Source of the DNA: Methanofastidiosum sp.
GTDB lineage: Archaea > Methanobacteriota_B > Thermococci > Methanofastidiosales > Methanofastidiosaceae
Length of the DNA stretch: 35,765 nt
Direction of reading: 5' to 3'
Assembly: GCA_020854815.1 (NCBI GenBank)
Contig: JAHKLW010000078.1
Location: 1 to 35,765 of the forward strand
Below the pieces are notes generated by a model. The model did not search any database and was not told the DNA's origin. It saw only the letters and a program-made list of their open reading frames with translations. Made by a program: the position numbers and the translations under genes. The number at the start of each line of letters is the position of its first letter. The first letter of the stretch is position 1. Shown here one piece after another: positions 16,367 to 25,141 of the stretch.

Positions 16367-17392
16367 ATGAATATTCTGATGATTGGTGAATATCCTCCAA
16401 AAATTGGGGGTATTTCTACCCACATATATCAACTAAAAAAAGAATTGAGTAAATTTGACCAAGATGTTTTTGTTTTAACTTATTCAAATTGCTTAGAAGA
16501 AAAAGTATATTCTACAAGATTACCTAAGAAGTTTAGGGGAATTTTTTTTATTATATTTGGGTTTTTTATGGGCATTAGTATAATTAGAAAGAATAAAATT
16601 GATTTGATACATGCACATTTTGCCACAACTCCTGGGATACTCGGCCTTTTTTTATCCATTATTACACGAAAAAAGAGAATTTTAACAGTCCATGGGAGTG
16701 ATATCAACGTTTACTTAAAAAAAAGTATTATGGGTCAGTTAGTGAAATTTGTATTGTATAATTATCCTGTTATCATTGCCGTATCTCCCGATCTTGTAAA
16801 AAAATTAGCACCTTTAGTTAGGGGTGATATTATTCCTATTCCCAACGGAGTTGATCATTTGAGATTCTTTCCCGAAGATTCTGAAAAAAAAGGTATAGGA
16901 TTCATAGGAGCCTTAGTAAATGAAAAAAATCCATGGGAGTTTATTGATTTAATTCGAAAGCTTAGGCTAAAAGGGATTATTGAATCAGCTTATATTATTG
17001 GAGACGGTTACTTAAAAAAAGACCTAGTTGAAATATCTAGAGGTCTCGATATTGATTTTTTAGGAGAGATATTCGACGTAGAAAAATATTTGAAAAAATT
17101 TAAGGTAGTTGTTTCAACTTCAAAAACCGAAGGATTTGGGCTTTCTATTCTCGAGGCCATGGCATGTGGTGTTCCTGTAGTTTCTCTAGTAAGCCTGGGC
17201 TCTAAATACCTATTAGGTGATTTGAATTTGGTAGTTCAAGATAAAAATCAATTAACAGATTTAGTAGAGAAAATAATAATAAATCCCGAACTTAGACTTG
17301 AACTTTCCAACAAGGTACTAGAAAAATCTAAGCTATTCTCGTGGGAAAAATGCGCCAGAGGTACTTTGGACGTTTATAAAAAATTTATTTGA
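16367..17392 (+). CDS. GT4-family glycosyltransferase
   Basis: This is a GT-B fold retaining glycosyltransferase acting at the cytoplasmic face of the membrane. The N-terminal MIGEYPPKIGGISTHIYQL is the acceptor-side motif of the family. HGSDINVY and PNGVDHLRF are conserved, and the donor site E-x7-E appears as E255 and E263 in TEGFGLSILEAMACGVP. The sugar and acceptor cannot be told. It could serve surface-glycan or lipid glycosylation, given the archaeosortase next to it. ATG 16367 is preferred by family; an ATG at 16379 is possible. It ends in an 8-bp convergent overlap with the archaeosortase gene. Confidence 0.93.
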   Translation: MNILMIGEYPPKIGGISTHIYQLKKELSKFDQDVFVLTYSNCLEEKVYSTRLPKKFRGIFFIIFGFFMGISIIRKNKIDLIHAHFATTPGILGLFLSIITRKKRILTVHGSDINVYLKKSIMGQLVKFVLYNYPVIIAVSPDLVKKLAPLVRGDIIPIPNGVDHLRFFPEDSEKKGIGFIGALVNEKNPWEFIDLIRKLRLKGIIESAYIIGDGYLKKDLVEISRGLDIDFLGEIFDVEKYLKKFKVVVSTSKTEGFGLSILEAMACGVPVVSLVSLGSKYLLGDLNLVVQDKNQLTDLVEKIIINPELRLELSNKVLEKSKLFSWEKCARGTLDVYKKFI

Positions 17393-17882
17393 ATAATGGG
17401 ATGTATGGATTTATTCTTATTAAAATAAGAAATGAAAAACCTATCCCAAGCGCATATGCCAAAATATCATGTGCAATAAGCCAACTGTAACCTTGTTCAA
17501 AAAGATATATTGTTATGATTAATCTTAATATATTTAAAAATAATAGGATTATTAAAAATAGAAAAAGATATGCGATTTTTTTAGATAATGTTAATGAAGA
17601 CAATACAAATAAAGAAGTAAATATTGCACCTGAAGCTAACCCAATACACCTCTTAGAGATTTCATAATTTCCCACAGCAATAAATTTCTCAGATACAATA
17701 AGTGGCTTTTGTATATCTAAAAGTGCTACCCCTTCCTTAACAGCTTCAGCTGTGAATATCCTGATTGGAGTATAATCACTTATAACATAAAGAAATATGG
17801 ATAGTATCATTCCTTTAATAAAAAATATTAGCTTGTTATAATTGGCTTCCCCATATTTCTTAATTATGTTATCTTTTATCAT
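17385..17882 (-). CDS. Archaeosortase/exosortase-family protein
   Basis: This integral membrane protein of 165 residues has about five to six spans. The putative transpeptidase triad is in the usual order: C79 in SKRCIGLASG, R120 in LFLNILRLI and H138 in LIAHDILAYALG. Family members process C-terminal sorting signals of surface proteins in place of sortase. No protein in this window has a recognisable archaeosortase C-terminal tripartite signal, so its substrates must lie elsewhere. The message appears leaderless (minus-strand CTTAAAA at 17912-17906). It is convergent with the glycosyltransferase gene. Confidence 0.82.
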   Translation of the reverse strand: MIKDNIIKKYGEANYNKLIFFIKGMILSIFLYVISDYTPIRIFTAEAVKEGVALLDIQKPLIVSEKFIAVGNYEISKRCIGLASGAIFTSLFVLSSLTLSKKIAYLFLFLIILLFLNILRLIITIYLFEQGYSWLIAHDILAYALGIGFSFLILIRINPYIPLFK

Positions 17883-18005: not shown

Positions 18006-18776
18006 TTGGGAGAATCGCTAGTCATATCTTCAGGAAAGGGAGGAGTGGGGAAAACAACAATTTCGGCTAATTTGGGTATAGCTCTTTCTGAGATTGGACT
18101 TAATGTTTTAATTTTTGATGCAGATATTACTATGGCTAATCTTGAGCTAATATTTGGAATGGAAGGACTGCCAAAGACTATCCAAGATGTACTCGAAGAT
18201 AAAGCAAGACCTCAAGATATAGTATATGCTGGCCCCGGCGGTGTAAAAGTCGTCCCTGCAGGCCTATCGCTAAGAAGGCTAAAAAAATCCGATCCTGATA
18301 AAATTAATGAAATATTTAAATATTTTGTAGAAAAAGTTGATTTGTTAATAATCGATGGGCCCCCAGGTCTCGAAGTAGATGCAGTGACTTCTATCGCAGC
18401 ATCACAAAATATGCTTTTGATTGTAAATCCTGAGATTACCTCGTTATCCGATGCATTGAAAATAAAACTTGTAGCAGAGAAATTAGGCACAAGAATTCTT
18501 GGGGTTATCGTAAATAGAGTTAGAGGAGACCCAACAGAAGTTTCAGGGCCTGAAATAGAAGCAATACTTGAACTTAGGATAATTGGTAATATCCCAGAAG
18601 ACCAAATAGTAAAGAAATCAACAACTCTAGGAAAACCTTTTGTAATATTGGACCCAAAATCTCCGGCCTCACTAGCTATTAGAGAGATTGCTAAAAAAAT
18701 TGCGGGAAAGAAGGTGGAATTTGAACCCTCTACAAAATCCATGAATAAACTAATGGGAGGGCTATTTGGGAGATGA
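18006..18776 (+). CDS. minD: MinD/ParA-family ATPase
   Basis: This is a deviant-Walker P-loop ATPase with KGGVGKTT at residues 11-18, the switch segment DADITMANLELIFGM, and IIDGPPGLEVD as the Walker B region. It resembles archaeal MinD proteins, which act in spatial organisation of membranes and motility structures; archaeal MinD does not simply copy the bacterial Min role. The C-terminal end MNKLMGGLFGR may be an amphipathic membrane-targeting helix. The start is TTG 18006 with a strong GGGGGAG site. A small membrane protein gene follows four bases after the stop, so the two are probably co-translated. Confidence 0.93.
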   Translation: MGESLVISSGKGGVGKTTISANLGIALSEIGLNVLIFDADITMANLELIFGMEGLPKTIQDVLEDKARPQDIVYAGPGGVKVVPAGLSLRRLKKSDPDKINEIFKYFVEKVDLLIIDGPPGLEVDAVTSIAASQNMLLIVNPEITSLSDALKIKLVAEKLGTRILGVIVNRVRGDPTEVSGPEIEAILELRIIGNIPEDQIVKKSTTLGKPFVILDPKSPASLAIREIAKKIAGKKVEFEPSTKSMNKLMGGLFGR

Positions 18777-18780
18777 AATT

Positions 18781-18984
18781 ATGGCATTGTTAGATATAAT
18801 GGTTAATAGCTGGATTATAATTTTTATTATAGCCATAGTCAGTATAATAATCAATGTAATCTTAGGGGTTAAGGTTTATATGCAAAGAGAAGAGCTCGAT
18901 AGATTACGCGGTGGCAGATTGTCTCGTGAGGAACTTGAGATATTAAGGGCACGTCTTGCTAGAATAAAGAAACTATCTAAATAA
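18781..18984 (+). CDS. Small single-span membrane protein next to minD
   Basis: The 67-residue protein has one membrane span (IIIFIIAIVSIIINVILGV) followed by a basic, arginine-rich amphipathic helix (REELDRLRGGRLSREELEI). I do not recognise a family. ATG 18781 has GGGAGATGA just upstream; it begins four bases after minD ends, so coupled expression is likely. A membrane partner or anchor for MinD is a reasonable inference from position only. Confidence 0.72.
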   Translation: MALLDIMVNSWIIIFIIAIVSIIINVILGVKVYMQREELDRLRGGRLSREELEILRARLARIKKLSK

Positions 18985-19081: not shown

Positions 19082-19124
19082 ACTACCAAAAGCTTTATAT
19101 AGTTATTAAATCATAATTGGTAGT
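19082..19124 (+). promoter_or_regulatory. Promoter with inverted repeats flanking the TATA box
   Basis: CTTTATATAG at 19093-19102 is the TATA box, predicting a start near 19124. ACTACCAA at 19082-19089 and its exact complement TTGGTAGT at 19117-19124 flank it, the second arm lying at the start site. This is a plausible operator pair for the giant surface protein gene. Confidence 0.5.
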
Positions 19125-19148: not shown

Positions 19149-22100
19149 ATGAAAAATTCCAATTATTCATATTTGCTAAATGTATTTTTATTATCGATAT
19201 TCATTATCAGCGTTGTTGCAACCCCTGTCTTGGCACAAGGTGTAATATCTGGGAGAGTAACCGATACCAACGCAACACCACAAGGAATCAGTGGTGTTAT
19301 AGTTGACGCTTATAAGGCAAACGATACCAATGCTTGTCCAACGATAAAAGGAATGGCAACAACTGATGTCAACGGTACTTATTATATATATCCATTAGAA
19401 TATGGTAAATATGCAATAAGAGCTTATGCACCAGGTTATTTATCAAATTCTACATTAGCAGATACCTGTATTTCGTCATGTTCTCCAGATTTTAATTTAA
19501 CACTTCAGGATACAAATGGGATTGTAATAGGGCATGTATATGAGCCAGATGGAATAACTCCTATCGAAGGTGCAACTGTAAAAGCTTATTATCCTGGTAC
19601 AGAGAATGTATTAGCAAGTTCTTTAACATCTGCGGACGGTAATTATACTCTTTCTAATCTTGGTGGCATATATGATATTGAAGCCTCAGGAATAGGGTGG
19701 CTTCCAAAAAAAATGACTATAAACGTACCTCATCCTTTGGGACTAATCATCCAAGACTTTGTTCTTTTACCTGGGCCTTATTACGATCCTGACGCGGTAT
19801 TCATGGGGTGGATAGAAATTGGAGATCTCACAGTTGTAGGAGATTACACTATACTACTTAAAGACCTTCAAAGAAGACACCCAATAATGCCGCCGGAAAG
19901 GGGTATCTTGGAGGTATATAGAAAGGGAACAATGGTAATACAACAGGTTGTCGTGCCTGGAGATACATTATTCATTGATGAAATTATTAAAATTAAGGTA
20001 AATGAAATTAATGATCATGAAAACGCTAATTATTTTGGAAGATACAAACTTAATATCACTGTGACTAGGAGAAAGGAGCCTGAATTGTCTATTAATTTGA
20101 CCAATCTTTATAGGGGAGAGATAGATGACAAAGATAGAACTTTTTTGAGGGGAAGCAAGGAAGGCATTAAAACAGTACTTTTAGGAGATACTGATATCAA
20201 CGCAAGTTCAGGGTCTGTTGAGTTTGATGACAATAATTATAATTTCAATGTTTCTGCAATAAATGGAAACATTCAATATGTATTTAATTTTAAAGAAGTG
20301 AACGGCTCATTCGTTCAACCGGGGCATCTATATAAAGGAGACATTGTTACTATAGGGAAAGATACCACGTGTAAGAATATTAGGCAACTTGTTATTTATG
20401 AGATGAATGGGAACTCGGTAATTTGGGCACCAATAATACATTCCATAATGAAACCAGAAGATTTTGATTTTGAAACAGAAAATGAAATTGAGAAACCACA
20501 GTCAGATACTAACTTCTGGTATGTAACTGAGATTGAGAATACTGGAGACATACCTGCAAAAAATGTTAAAATCCATGTAACAGCAAAAGATTTTATTTTT
20601 CTGAGTGGAAATAACTGTTATTGTGGTTCTGATAAAGAAGCATGTCTTGAAATAAAATCAATGGAACCTGGGGAAAAAAGACTGATAGTGTTTAAATTTA
20701 AAGCTCCTCAAACTGATTACTTGAAAGTATCACCTATCCAGATTGATTTGTCCTATCAAATGGCTTATTTTAATGAAAAAGAACAGGAAGTAATACAAGA
20801 TTATTCAAAAAGCGATAAAACTTTGATAACTATAGTTCCAAAACAACCAGAATTTCAGATTACAAGAAATATTGTTAAAGAAAAACTTTTTGTCGGAGAA
20901 ACAACTGATGTTGAAATCAGAATAAAGAACACTGGAGATATACCGGCTACAAAAATAAAATTAATTGATTATATTCCTGATGGATTTGAATTAATCGATG
21001 GTAGCGCAACAATGAACATCGATAAGATGGCAAAAAATGAAACATTCACTTTAATCTATAAAGTAAAAGCTCTTGAAATGGGAGAATTCGATTTCAAAAC
21101 TGAACTACTTTTTGAAGATGAAGCCGGAAAAAAATACAAAACTACTTCAAAAATTGAACCAGTTTCAGTTAGCAAGGAATTTCCAAGACTTGAGATACTC
21201 AAGAAATTGGATAGAGTTACAATATCCAGAGGAGATTCCGTTATTGTAGTTTTAGTTGTAAGAAATACTGGAAATAAGATTGCAAGAGATGTGCAGGTTC
21301 TTGATTTTGTTCCCGAAGGATTCAGACTGATTGACGATCCAAAAACAAAAAGAATAGAATATACTATCGCTGAATTAAAACCGGAACAAGAAAGAATGTT
21401 TAAGTATATTATAACTGCATCTTATCCGGGAGAATATAAAATAGGCGACACAAAATTATTGTATTACGATCTTGAGGGCCACAGCTTTGAACATATAGCA
21501 TCTGGTACCTCGGTAAGAGTTAATGGCGAGCCCAAAATAACAATATCCAATATTCAGTATTTTAATGAAGATTATTCTTTTGCGGATTACAAATATGTTG
21601 ACATTGTCTTAACTTTAACAAATACAGGGGATGGACTTGCAAAAAAAATAAGTTATATCAATGCTATTTCTGGAGATATAGAGCTCATTGACGGTCAATT
21701 AGGGGGATTTCTAGATGATCTAAAACAGGGCGATTCAAAGACAACTAAATTCACAGTTAGAGTGCTTCAAGAAAACAAAGATAAGATATTCACAATTAAT
21801 ACTTCTTCAGAATTTGAAGATATAGCTGGCAAGAAAGCCAAATCTGAAGTATCCACAAATATTACTATTGGCGGAAGAACTCCAAATATAAATCTGATAA
21901 GACAAGAATCTGATTACAAATCAGACGTAATTAGAATTGGGCATATTATACCTGTAGTAACAATAATCGCTAACTCAGGCGACGGAGATGCTAAAAATGT
22001 TAGGATTGAAGATAGAATCCCTTCAAATTTTCAAGTAACAACAGGTATTAACTATTGGGGTGGCCAATTAAAACCTGAGGAGAGGGTAACTTTAAGATAT

Positions 22101-24092
22101 ACTTTAGTGCCTTCCCAGGGAGGAGAATATCAAATTGGCCAAACTTTATCGACATATGAAGATGAGTGGGGAGTCAAGGGAACAAAATCATTGTCTCCAA
22201 CCCTAGTCACAGTTTGGGGCCCTTCAATCTCTAGAGTTATCTCTATCAATGAAATTCAAGAAGATGAAACAATAAAGATAACTTATACAATTAAAAACTG
22301 GGGAAAGGACGATATTTATGAAGTAAAAATATTTGAAGCTCTACCTCAAGGATTTGAAATAATTTCGGGAGATAAGGAAATAATAATTGGAGAAATTAAA
22401 GCAGGAGTTGAAGTATCAAGAGAATTACAGGTAAAAGCTACAAAATCTGGAGCATTTATCTTAGAAGATTCGAAATTTTACTGGAAAAATGTTTTTGAGG
22501 AATTAAAATCTTTTGACATTGAAAGAACAACTATAAGTGTCAAAGCTAAAGCGGCACCTCAAACTAGTCTACCCAATGTTCCTCAATCAGTAACTCAAAC
22601 AATACAAGATATTAAGTCATCACCATATGCACCTTTTATTTTAATTGCAATCATTGTATTACTTTTGTCAGTAGTGGGGTACGCAGTTTATAAATCAATG
22701 AGATCAAAGGGGCCATCGACTAAATCTCTCGCATCAAAAAACGGTAAACCGCCACTTGAGCCACAGACTGACAAAAAAGTAAAAACTAAATCTAGAAAAG
22801 GATTCAACTTATTATCAAAACAAAAAGAAAATGCAGTCAAACCTGACCAAAAGTCACCTGTAGCTGGATTCGAAACTCAGGCCAAATCATTAACCAAAGA
22901 GTCAAAAAAAGAGAAGAAAATTTTTGGGCTATTTTCTAAAAAAGAAAAATTACCAAATAGAGAAAAAGCACCCACACCAGTATCTCCAAGTCTTGAAGTT
23001 GAAAATAAATTTAAAGAATTTGTAACACGTGAAGAAGATAAAAATAATATAACAAAAGATCAAACTGGTCAAGAATTACTTGGTAAAAGAGTCGCACCTC
23101 CTGCGATAAAACAAAAACAAAAGAGTAAATTTTCATTATTTTCAAAGAAAAGTGAGGGAATACCTCAAGATACAAAGTCGTTTACGCTGTCTCATTTATA
23201 TAAATCCCAAGAAAATAAAGATAAAAAGGAACAACTAAGAAAAGAATTAGAATCAGTAAGTATTTTAGAGGAAGATCCACCTACATTAAAAGAGAAATTT
23301 AAAAATAATAATGGGAGATTAGAAGCAAAATTCTCTTCATCAAATAATCCGATAACAGAGGAGACAATAGAGGCAAGATCGCCGAGAGTGGAATTTAGAC
23401 CTCCTGAGGAAATAAGAAAAGAACTTGAGGAGCTTAAATCAACATTACAAGATAAGGAAAAAATAGAAGCTCTTGATCCATTAGAAATAGAATCTATGAG
23501 GTCTGATATTTCAAAGACTCTAGAAGAGATAGAAATAAGACAAGAGAAGATTGCAAGAGAAGAGCAAAGAGAAATTTTGGAGGAGTCTTCCCATATAGAG
23601 CTAATGGATAGAAAAGAACTTGATGAATTTCAGACAAAAATATTAAATGAAATTAATGAGATTGAATCTAAGAAACATATTGATTTTGAAGAAGAACAAT
23701 TGAAAGAGGTAAAGGGGAGGGTTGTACCCAAGAATGTTAATTTAGAACTTCCGCCGTCTGTAGAAAGAGCATACAAAGAATTCAAACAAAATAAGAACAA
23801 TGGTGAACCTGAAAATCCATTCAAAGAAGGGGGCAATGGGCCAATTAAGAAGACTAGTTCTTGGACAAATAACTTTAAACACAACAACACTTCGCCAGAA
23901 ATACCTTCTTCAATAAGGGAATTACTAGAAAAAAGACCCTCGAGTAATAATGATACATACACCACAACACCAGATATAAAAGAGATTATTAAAGGGAAAA
24001 AGGAAACTACAGACAGGTTCTATTCTAAAAATTCTACATCAATACCAGAACCAAAAGAAGTAATAAAAGGTAAGAAAAAGAATCAAAGATGA
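19149..24092 (+). CDS. Giant surface protein with Ig-like repeats and large cytoplasmic tail
   Basis: The 1647-residue protein starts with a signal peptide (cut near ALAQ, residue ~29-30). Two carboxypeptidase-regulatory-like beta domains follow at about 30-110 and 120-195. A region of beta character then leads to six tandem conserved-repeat (DUF11/CARDB-like) domains. Their N-T/S-G or N-W-G motif lies near residues 464, 594, 706, 825, 942 and 1050, usually with a following PxGFELIDG-like segment. One membrane span is at about 1160-1182. After it come about 460 residues of Lys/Glu-rich cytoplasmic tail with a coiled-coil part (about 1415-1560), three F-x-L/G-x-S-K-K/Q motifs and two terminal KEIIKGKK/KEVIKGKK motifs. 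ATG 19149 has GGTGG upstream. Surface attachment with an intracellular connection is inferred; ligands are unknown. Confidence 0.9.
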   Translation: MKNSNYSYLLNVFLLSIFIISVVATPVLAQGVISGRVTDTNATPQGISGVIVDAYKANDTNACPTIKGMATTDVNGTYYIYPLEYGKYAIRAYAPGYLSNSTLADTCISSCSPDFNLTLQDTNGIVIGHVYEPDGITPIEGATVKAYYPGTENVLASSLTSADGNYTLSNLGGIYDIEASGIGWLPKKMTINVPHPLGLIIQDFVLLPGPYYDPDAVFMGWIEIGDLTVVGDYTILLKDLQRRHPIMPPERGILEVYRKGTMVIQQVVVPGDTLFIDEIIKIKVNEINDHENANYFGRYKLNITVTRRKEPELSINLTNLYRGEIDDKDRTFLRGSKEGIKTVLLGDTDINASSGSVEFDDNNYNFNVSAINGNIQYVFNFKEVNGSFVQPGHLYKGDIVTIGKDTTCKNIRQLVIYEMNGNSVIWAPIIHSIMKPEDFDFETENEIEKPQSDTNFWYVTEIENTGDIPAKNVKIHVTAKDFIFLSGNNCYCGSDKEACLEIKSMEPGEKRLIVFKFKAPQTDYLKVSPIQIDLSYQMAYFNEKEQEVIQDYSKSDKTLITIVPKQPEFQITRNIVKEKLFVGETTDVEIRIKNTGDIPATKIKLIDYIPDGFELIDGSATMNIDKMAKNETFTLIYKVKALEMGEFDFKTELLFEDEAGKKYKTTSKIEPVSVSKEFPRLEILKKLDRVTISRGDSVIVVLVVRNTGNKIARDVQVLDFVPEGFRLIDDPKTKRIEYTIAELKPEQERMFKYIITASYPGEYKIGDTKLLYYDLEGHSFEHIASGTSVRVNGEPKITISNIQYFNEDYSFADYKYVDIVLTLTNTGDGLAKKISYINAISGDIELIDGQLGGFLDDLKQGDSKTTKFTVRVLQENKDKIFTINTSSEFEDIAGKKAKSEVSTNITIGGRTPNINLIRQESDYKSDVIRIGHIIPVVTIIANSGDGDAKNVRIEDRIPSNFQVTTGINYWGGQLKPEERVTLRYTLVPSQGGEYQIGQTLSTYEDEWGVKGTKSLSPTLVTVWGPSISRVISINEIQEDETIKITYTIKNWGKDDIYEVKIFEALPQGFEIISGDKEIIIGEIKAGVEVSRELQVKATKSGAFILEDSKFYWKNVFEELKSFDIERTTISVKAKAAPQTSLPNVPQSVTQTIQDIKSSPYAPFILIAIIVLLLSVVGYAVYKSMRSKGPSTKSLASKNGKPPLEPQTDKKVKTKSRKGFNLLSKQKENAVKPDQKSPVAGFETQAKSLTKESKKEKKIFGLFSKKEKLPNREKAPTPVSPSLEVENKFKEFVTREEDKNNITKDQTGQELLGKRVAPPAIKQKQKSKFSLFSKKSEGIPQDTKSFTLSHLYKSQENKDKKEQLRKELESVSILEEDPPTLKEKFKNNNGRLEAKFSSSNNPITEETIEARSPRVEFRPPEEIRKELEELKSTLQDKEKIEALDPLEIESMRSDISKTLEEIEIRQEKIAREEQREILEESSHIELMDRKELDEFQTKILNEINEIESKKHIDFEEEQLKEVKGRVVPKNVNLELPPSVERAYKEFKQNKNNGEPENPFKEGGNGPIKKTSSWTNNFKHNNTSPEIPSSIRELLEKRPSSNNDTYTTTPDIKEIIKGKKETTDRFYSKNSTSIPEPKEVIKGKKKNQR

Positions 24093-24113: not shown

Positions 24114-24138
24114 TGTGTAATCTGCTAAAAATTTCGCC
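24114..24138 (+). repeat. Left terminal inverted repeat of the IS
   Basis: It begins TGTGTAATCTGC and matches the complement of 25117-25141 at all 25 positions. The transposase stop codon lies inside it. Confidence 0.93.
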
Positions 24139-25084
24139 TGTTATCAAATGATGATTTTTCTTCCTCCTTATCTACCAATTCCATAAAGTTGCCCAGTACT
24201 ACTGGCTCAAGCTTTCGCCAGAAAGCTTTCTCTGGTGTTTCAAGATTGTCCCAGTCTAAACTCATGTGCGGTCTTATCTCGTTATACCAATGCACGAACA
24301 TTTCAAATGATTCAAATCCGCTTCGATGTCGCTTGTACAGGTGAAACCATTTCTCTACCTTGCCGTTTGTCTGTGGGTGGGCTCGTCTGCAGAGTATATG
24401 CTTGATGTCATAGGATTTACAGAATTCCTCAAAGCTGTGGGAAGCATTTCCACACTTGTCCCGCCTATTGGCATAAAATTCAGAGCCTCTATCCGTTATT
24501 ACTTCATGAAATTTCATTACATGCTCGTATTTATGGAAAGCCTCTTTGAGAAGTGATATGGCAATTTCAGCGCTCTGGCGCTTAAATTCTCCTCCTGAGA
24601 GTATTTTCCGGCTTGCGTCATCTAAAACAACGCATACTGAGGTCCCGTTTACTCCTGTTGACCAGTCCATATGCACTGTACTAAGAGGATACGTTCTCTC
24701 AAACCTAATCCAATCCTTTTTTCTTACCCTCTTATTTGGATTTTCTACCGATATTCCCATCTCCCTAAGCATTCTATTTACAAGCATGTTGTCTATTGGC
24801 GTGCCCCTCTTTTTACGAATGTATTTGGCAATTGCTGGTGCGCCTGACCTTGTCACTTCCCATACATTTTGTATTTCCCTTCTAAGATTGGCAGGATAAA
24901 CTCCATATGGATATCTGCCAGATCTATTTATCTTTGGCATGTCGTTTGTACGCTCGTATTCCTTTACTATCTGCTGCACTCGGCGCTGACTTACGCCAAA
25001 TTGTTTTGCAACTAGCTTTGTGGGTAGTTTGTAATCCACTACCCGCATCACTATCGTTTTTGCCTTCTCATCGTCTAGCTTCAT
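24125..25084 (-). CDS. IS481-family transposase
   Basis: This is a DDE recombinase of 319 residues. A helix-turn-helix lies at the N terminus (VAKQFGVSQRRVQQIVKEY), followed by an integrase-core (rve) domain. The catalytic residues appear as D in VHMDWS, D in VITDRGSEFYA and E in HPQTNGKVEKWF. The C-terminal YNEIRPHMSLDWDNLETPE is typical of the family. The reading frame is uninterrupted, so the element may be active. The start is ATG 25084 (MKLDDEKAK). A related but diverged copy of its end lies at the right edge of the window. Confidence 0.95.
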   Translation of the reverse strand: MKLDDEKAKTIVMRVVDYKLPTKLVAKQFGVSQRRVQQIVKEYERTNDMPKINRSGRYPYGVYPANLRREIQNVWEVTRSGAPAIAKYIRKKRGTPIDNMLVNRMLREMGISVENPNKRVRKKDWIRFERTYPLSTVHMDWSTGVNGTSVCVVLDDASRKILSGGEFKRQSAEIAISLLKEAFHKYEHVMKFHEVITDRGSEFYANRRDKCGNASHSFEEFCKSYDIKHILCRRAHPQTNGKVEKWFHLYKRHRSGFESFEMFVHWYNEIRPHMSLDWDNLETPEKAFWRKLEPVVLGNFMELVDKEEEKSSFDNRRNF

Positions 25085-25116
25085 GTTTATATTAGAAAAA
25101 TCATGATTTAAAGCTA

Positions 25117-25141
25117 GGCGAAATTTTTAGCAGATTACACA
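25117..25141 (-). repeat. Right terminal inverted repeat of the IS
   Basis: It is the exact complement of 24114-24138. Its outer end is 23 bp upstream of the pcn TATA box. Confidence 0.93.

Follow-up and report, generated by a model that had tools for sequence, protein, structure and literature searches.

A giant surface protein with a long charged cytoplasmic tail, encoded beside minD in Candidatus Methanofastidiosum, as a possible envelope-anchored scaffold

HubP and FimV are bacterial polar landmarks that combine a single membrane span, an envelope-binding outer part and long cytoplasmic regions (PMC12918733), and the cytoplasmic region is described as recruiting clients of the ParA/MinD family (PMC12918733; PMC8789113). 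The positioning of FimV needs its outer Ig-like domain (PMC12918733). What the known activators of ParA/MinD ATPases, proteins unrelated to one another, have in common is a short peptide with positive charge that is attached to another interaction domain (PMC7993993). Among the archaea, FleN/MinD-like ATPases have been connected with type IV pili (PMC4858521), MinD4 has been hypothesised to act like a landmark, and HVO_0596, the operon partner of Haloferax MinD2, is diffusely located and can be deleted without a phenotype (PMC11588486); according to a study from 2024, clear MinE-like partners of the Haloferax MinD proteins had not been identified (PMC11621097). Here we describe a locus of an uncultured methane-making archaeon (Candidatus Methanofastidiosum) in which minD, a small membrane protein and a giant surface protein with a long tail are neighbours.

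The giant gene occupies positions 19149..24092 on the + strand of the window, that is, of the whole 35,765-nucleotide stretch of DNA analysed, and its 1647-residue reading frame starts with ATG and has no internal stop. A possible frame error was checked: the frame is open in nine full-length sequences of the genus, and the tail belongs to the protein. All features of the giant lie on the same strand. Hydropathy reveals only two hydrophobic segments, one (aa 6-30) marking a signal peptide (aa 1-30, 19149..19238) and the other a span at about aa 1161-1182. Between them Pfam places two carboxypeptidase regulatory-like domains (aa 33-101, 19245..19451, PF13620; aa 128-194, 19530..19730, PF13715/PF13620) and about six Ig-like domains of the DUF11/CARDB/TRAP-beta type (aa 436-1140, 20454..22568), with PF01345, PF05753 and PF07705 above their cut-offs (PF01345 95.9 bits against 24.6; PF07705 49.3 against 22.7). 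In the AlphaFold2 model an all-beta ectodomain, with pLDDT mostly between 70 and 90, leads into one long membrane helix (aa 1161-1184, 22629..22700). The original prediction of Ig-like repeats and two carboxypeptidase-like domains outside, followed by one span, is borne out by the Pfam matches and by the agreement of hydropathy with AlphaFold2; a second membrane span was looked for and none was found. With a signal peptide, a single C-terminal anchor span and these domain memberships, the giant is a DUF11-type archaeal surface protein. The TRAP-beta match was also considered as a sign of a translocon component and rejected, since it overlaps the DUF11 region and is read as a shared Ig fold. 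The ectodomain, used as query in a structure search, matched only generic multi-Ig assemblies (TM-scores below 0.2), which says no more than that it is a string of Ig-like domains.

The tail behind the span comprises 463 residues (aa 1185-1647), among them 76 Lys, 67 Glu and no Cys, in agreement with the original description of a charged tail of about 460 residues. Its first two blocks of 40 residues carry net charges of +9 and +5, and its middle is acidic. Since the span is followed by a basic stop-transfer segment with a charge of +9 over 40 residues, in a protein with a cleaved signal peptide, the tail is almost certainly cytoplasmic. AlphaFold2, applied to ten sequences, predicts that most of the tail is disordered, including the basic membrane-proximal region indicated by the charge profile (aa 1185-1340, 22701..23168; pLDDT below 50 over most of it). 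The predicted folded parts are a confident helical hairpin with pLDDT up to 94 (aa 1420-1509, 23406..23675), coiled-coil-like as foreseen, and a beta-hairpin with a helix, KGRVVPKN...LPPSVERAYKEF (aa 1518-1550, 23700..23798), near-invariant in the ten sequences. Isolated short helices are predicted exactly at IRELLE, KEII and KEVI amid disorder, and in these models they have what would be the usual look of helical docking motifs on a flexible arm. A search for solved structures or phage families resembling the tail found none.

The order has four families, denoted here f1 to f4, f1 being the genus Methanofastidiosum. The giant is present in all ten genus genomes searched, that of the window included, in nine of them at full length and in one split over two contigs. 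Pairs of genus sequences are on average 76-91% identical through most of the ectodomain; for the tail the figure is 41-72%, with near-invariant islands in it: KKEGIPQ..K.FSLSHLY, VAPPAIK, KGRVVPKN..L.LPPSVE.AYKE, ENPF, SW(T)NNF, IPSSI(R/K)ELLEK and the two KE(I/V)IKGKK at the end. All segments are under purifying selection (median dS 0.9-1.8). For the whole tail the mean dN is 0.25 against a median dS of about 1.6, with dN of 0.10-0.20 in the islands; dN is 0.08-0.15 in the ectodomain, with a mean of 0.08 for the Ig part. Both the cytoplasmic location of the tail and its functional constraint are thus well supported.

A profile search over 115 genomes of the phylum found the giant family only in f1, f2 and f3, where every member has one span and, wherever complete, a charged tail. 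The relatives in f2 and f3 are built in the same way, but their tails are shorter, at about 110-240 residues. The original statement that most archaeal surface proteins of this type end with a short anchor therefore stands for the distant Thermococcales homologues, which are short-tailed, and not for these two families. In a maximum-likelihood tree the giants split with 100/100 support into f1 plus f2K (f2 proteins ending KGKKKKKEE) and f3 plus f2S (f2 paralogues ending SYENVS). Some f2 homologues contain in-frame stops, namely a minD copy with TAG (G010:C54:626-1353) and f2S giants with TGA (L126, L128), which may reflect assembly error, decay or recoding.

Two short motifs are repeated in the tail. 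The three basic aromatic copies that had been announced as F-x-L/G-x-S-K were found as KGFNLLSK, KIFGLFSK and SKFSLFSK (22803-22820, 22923-22940 and 23130-23147, with Phe at aa 1219, 1259 and 1328), but the pattern is better written K-x-F-x-[LF]-F-S-K and does not occur in all members: seven of the ten genus sequences have it three times, the others less exactly, and one (G005) has no exact copy. Matches of the FxLFSK type number three in the tail against 0.08 expected from shuffled tails, and the motif was not seen in the f2 and f3 tails examined. The other repeat consists of three putative docking-motif copies: IRELLEK (aa 1589-1595, 23913..23933), conserved in 10/10 sequences with a predicted short helix, and the two KEIIKGKK-like motifs expected at the very end, KEIIKGKK (aa 1611-1618, 23979..24002) and KEVIKGKK (aa 1636-1643, 24054..24077), both supported by conservation and a genome search.

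The general form of this second motif, [IVP][KRH][ED][IVL][IVL][KRE], matches the window tail three times against 0.03 expected from shuffles (0.01-0.03 per tail over the tails shuffled). In f2 proteins a single copy stands at the very C-terminus (PKEVLKGKKKKK), an f3 protein has four (VHELLR, VRDILR, IHEIIK and PRDILK; shuffle p < 0.001), and most relatives in these two further families carry [IVP][KR]E[IVL][IL]K. The motif was defined on the window protein and then sought in the relatives, and because its residue classes were widened once the relatives had been seen, the p-values are somewhat optimistic. Strict matches are absent from about 9,000 residues of other window proteins, and KE..KGKK-type sites, sought elsewhere in the 1.95-Mb genome as a hint of a shared partner, gave none. 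Neither repeated motif is a product of chance. Judged from the sequences, KxFxLFSK is confined to the genus, and the KE[IV]IKGKK-type motif is of much greater age. The original suggestion that the tail binds partners in multiple copies is partly upheld: the motifs are repeated and conserved as expected of multivalent docking, but the FxLFSK copies, lying in the basic membrane-proximal disordered region, might just as well contact the inner face of the membrane.

Upstream of the giant gene lies minD (18006..18776, + strand), which encodes a 256-residue archaeal MinD-type ATPase (TIGR01969 minD_arch, 305.2 bits against a cut-off of 201.75) with the deviant Walker A motif KGGVGKTT and a C-terminal amphipathic membrane-targeting tail, NKLMGGLFGR. 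Between the two genes, reading of the sequence and a profile search identified a small single-span membrane protein of 67 residues (18781..18984, + strand), which is missing from the list of open reading frames because of its length. It is predicted to consist of an N-terminal membrane helix followed by an almost invariant, basic, cytoplasmic C-terminal helix, RLRGGRLSREELEILRARLARIKKLSK. Recovered with E-values of 1e-34 to 1e-40 in 10/10 genus genomes and one genome of f2, it always lies at minD; it is 48% identical to the f2 copy. In f3 and Thermococcales, small single-span reading frames of unrelated sequence fill the same place after minD; tried as homologues, they gave no convincing profile match and were left as analogous. 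A putative archaeal TATA-box-like element, TTTATATA (19095..19102, + strand), recognised by eye upstream of the giant gene, suggests that this gene has its own promoter, and with 164 bases between the small frame and the giant gene co-transcription with minD would not be necessary.

The search for homologues with a MinD neighbourhood confirmed this neighbourhood as a conserved feature of the genus and of f2: wherever the locus is visible in genus genomes, and in the f2 genome, the genes follow one another as minD, small protein, giant. Synteny in the genus extends over the whole block (OTCase, GGGP synthase, glycosyltransferase, minD, giant, PCNA, methyltransferase), so the weight of the minD linkage rests on the f2 case, where MinD is 53% identical and the flanks differ, the downstream gene being pelota. 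There minD and the small protein are followed by the N-terminal half of a giant, 45-66% identical to a tail-bearing f2 protein; the tail-bearing f2 contigs stop short of minD. The f1 plus f2K giants are MinD-linked, and those of f3 plus f2S adjoin a KaiC-like ATPase in 4/4 visible cases, one f2S member lying downstream of a VirB11/TadC pilus operon. A type IV pilus locus of f2 (VirB11-like ATPase, TadC proteins), pieced together from several f2 genomes (L048, L174, L046), runs on into genes for a paralogous tailed giant, a coiled-coil protein and two KaiC-like ATPases.

Two further observations concern the immediate surroundings. A short archaeosortase/exosortase-family protein of 165 residues (17385-17882), kept in the genus, is encoded beside minD on the opposite strand. 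About 20 bases past the stop codon of the giant gene, between it and PCNA, sits an IS481-family element (24114-25141) with a transposase (24125-25084, - strand) and 48-nucleotide inverted ends that are 88% complementary (TGTGTAATCTGC...); it is absent from the orthologous loci, where PCNA directly follows the giant gene.

Across the order, the giant occurs in 16/16 genomes of f1 to f3 and in 0/5 of f4. The distribution of minD_arch above cut-off (14/16 and 0/5, the other two being a contig-cut and a frame-broken copy) and of the pilus secretion ATPase (14/16 and 0/5) is similar, and two other genes depart from this pattern, FtsZ being found everywhere and SepF in part of f4. The f4 genomes are incomplete MAGs, and the absence of giant, minD and pilus ATPase from them may be a single evolutionary event.

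Considering what is observed directly (the architecture, the single span, the conservation, the motif repetition, the gene order and the co-occurrence), the simplest reading that joins the facts is that of an envelope-anchored docking arm for a MinD-type ATPase. The Ig-like stalk and the carboxypeptidase-like domains would lie in or under the cell coat, one helix would cross the membrane, and inside the cell the long disordered tail would act as a flexible arm with several docking sites. As client, the neighbouring MinD is the best candidate, along with the 67-residue protein. MinD would attach to the membrane by its amphipathic C-terminal tail and could be captured or stimulated by short basic helical peptides, for which the KE[IV]IKGKK-type copies at the end of the tail, the basic helix of the 67-residue protein, or both, are candidates. 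The giant might in this way tie MinD-dependent positioning, possibly that of the co-occurring type IV pilus, to a fixed site in the envelope. In the sister clade of tailed giants a KaiC-like ATPase takes the genomic place of MinD. Direct binding of MinD, a role of the 67-residue protein as a membrane-bound ATPase activator and the positioning of pili are what we infer from these facts. MinD is a plausible direct partner of the giant. That the giant is an envelope-anchored scaffold whose tail docks MinD and perhaps other clients is proposed tentatively, with a chance that we put somewhat below even. It is doubtful that the giant is a coat-spanning landmark, unrelated to HubP, whose repeated cytoplasmic motif captures MinD while the 67-residue protein plays the part of MinE at the membrane, with a KaiC-like ATPase in place of MinD in the sister version.

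Part of the same evidence can be read differently. Since the motif occurs in f3 despite the linkage to KaiC, it need not be MinD-specific, and the tail might dock other cytoplasmic partners, linked to cell division, the chromosome or the ribosome, with minD adjoining only as part of a conserved housekeeping block. The synteny of the whole block, which makes the neighbourhood within the genus weak evidence by itself, and the presence of FtsZ in the same window point in this direction. However, minD, the small protein and the giant stay together in f2 despite different flanks, and the presence and absence of the giant tracks minD_arch over the four families. Mimicry of the FtsZ C-terminal peptide, sought in the tail, was rejected because FtsZ here ends DLGIEYI or KYGIDDLFS, unlike the tail motifs. 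We consider such partners in place of MinD unlikely. A link to the type IV pilus-like secretion machine, with the giant as its accessory, assembly platform or adhesin and the tail contacting pilus ATPases (VirB11-like, KaiC-like), is favoured by an f2 paralogue directly downstream of a VirB11-like ATPase/TadC operon and upstream of KaiC-like genes, and by the co-occurrence of the pilus ATPase with the giants; but the pilus locus of the genus is elsewhere, with no giant within the stretch examined around it, and the MinD-linked clade is separate from the pilus-linked one, which leaves this explanation very improbable.

The charge of the tail raises another question, namely whether it is mainly a polyelectrolyte that adheres to membrane or nucleoid and stabilises the giant without a specific partner. 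The basic aromatic copies resemble known membrane-binding segments such as MARCKS-type domains, and together with the strong positive charge after the span (+9 and then +5 per block) they would suit such a function. Nevertheless, the tail is acidic in its middle, those of f2 stay acidic until the shared terminal motif is reached, and the best-conserved islands (KGRVVPKN, LPPSVERAYKEF, SWTNNF, IPSSIRELLEK, KEIIKGKK) are sequence-specific and not merely basic. A tail that works mainly in this manner, with the K-x-F-x-L-F-S-K copies attached to the inner leaflet and the Lys-rich end to anionic surfaces and with no specific partner, is improbable.

The architecture is real, conserved and unusual, and it comes with a newly seen gene partner, the 67-residue protein. 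The trio suggests that the giant links the cell coat to the positioning machinery, and it supplies two concrete candidate partners of MinD and a short motif, so that the question of how archaea mark places on the envelope can be tested with purified parts. A literature search for work that brings together an archaeal surface protein, MinD and a cytoplasmic tail found none, and to our knowledge a giant that captures MinD would, if true, for the first time connect an archaeal cell coat across the membrane with positioning of the MinD type.

Among known systems, the DUF11/CARDB S-layer-like proteins of Thermococcales, of about 700 residues, share the signal peptide, the tandem Ig-like domains and the one C-terminal span, with 31% identity over two Ig domains, but their tails are short and carry RPGGLPKK, whereas the giant has a 463-residue tail, other motifs and minD as its neighbour. 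RPGGLPKK is a conserved motif among the Thermococcales examined; at the single locus inspected there (L173:1498-6861) the surface homologue of about 700 residues clusters with a prenyltransferase-like toroid protein and a CetZ-type tubulin. Like HubP and FimV, the giant combines a single span with a long cytoplasmic region; it differs in that its tail is of mixed charge and not simply acidic, its Pfam hits include neither a LysM-like envelope-binding domain nor the C-terminal TPR domain of FimV, and its C-terminus is disordered. No homology to HubP/FimV was detected; the giant is analogous to these proteins, not homologous with them, and is not a member of their family. It may likewise recruit clients of the ParA/MinD family from a polar position; what the genomes show in this respect is the linkage to minD. 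With the activators MinE, ParB and PomX the giant shares short, positively charged, helix-prone peptides in or on flexible regions, here KEIIKGKK and KEVIKGKKK at the disordered basic C-terminus; the known activator peptides are N-terminal, whereas those of the giant are C-terminal and repeated. As in Haloferax, an archaeal minD is followed by a conserved partner gene, but in place of HVO_0596 the partner here is a single-span protein, followed in turn by a giant surface protein.
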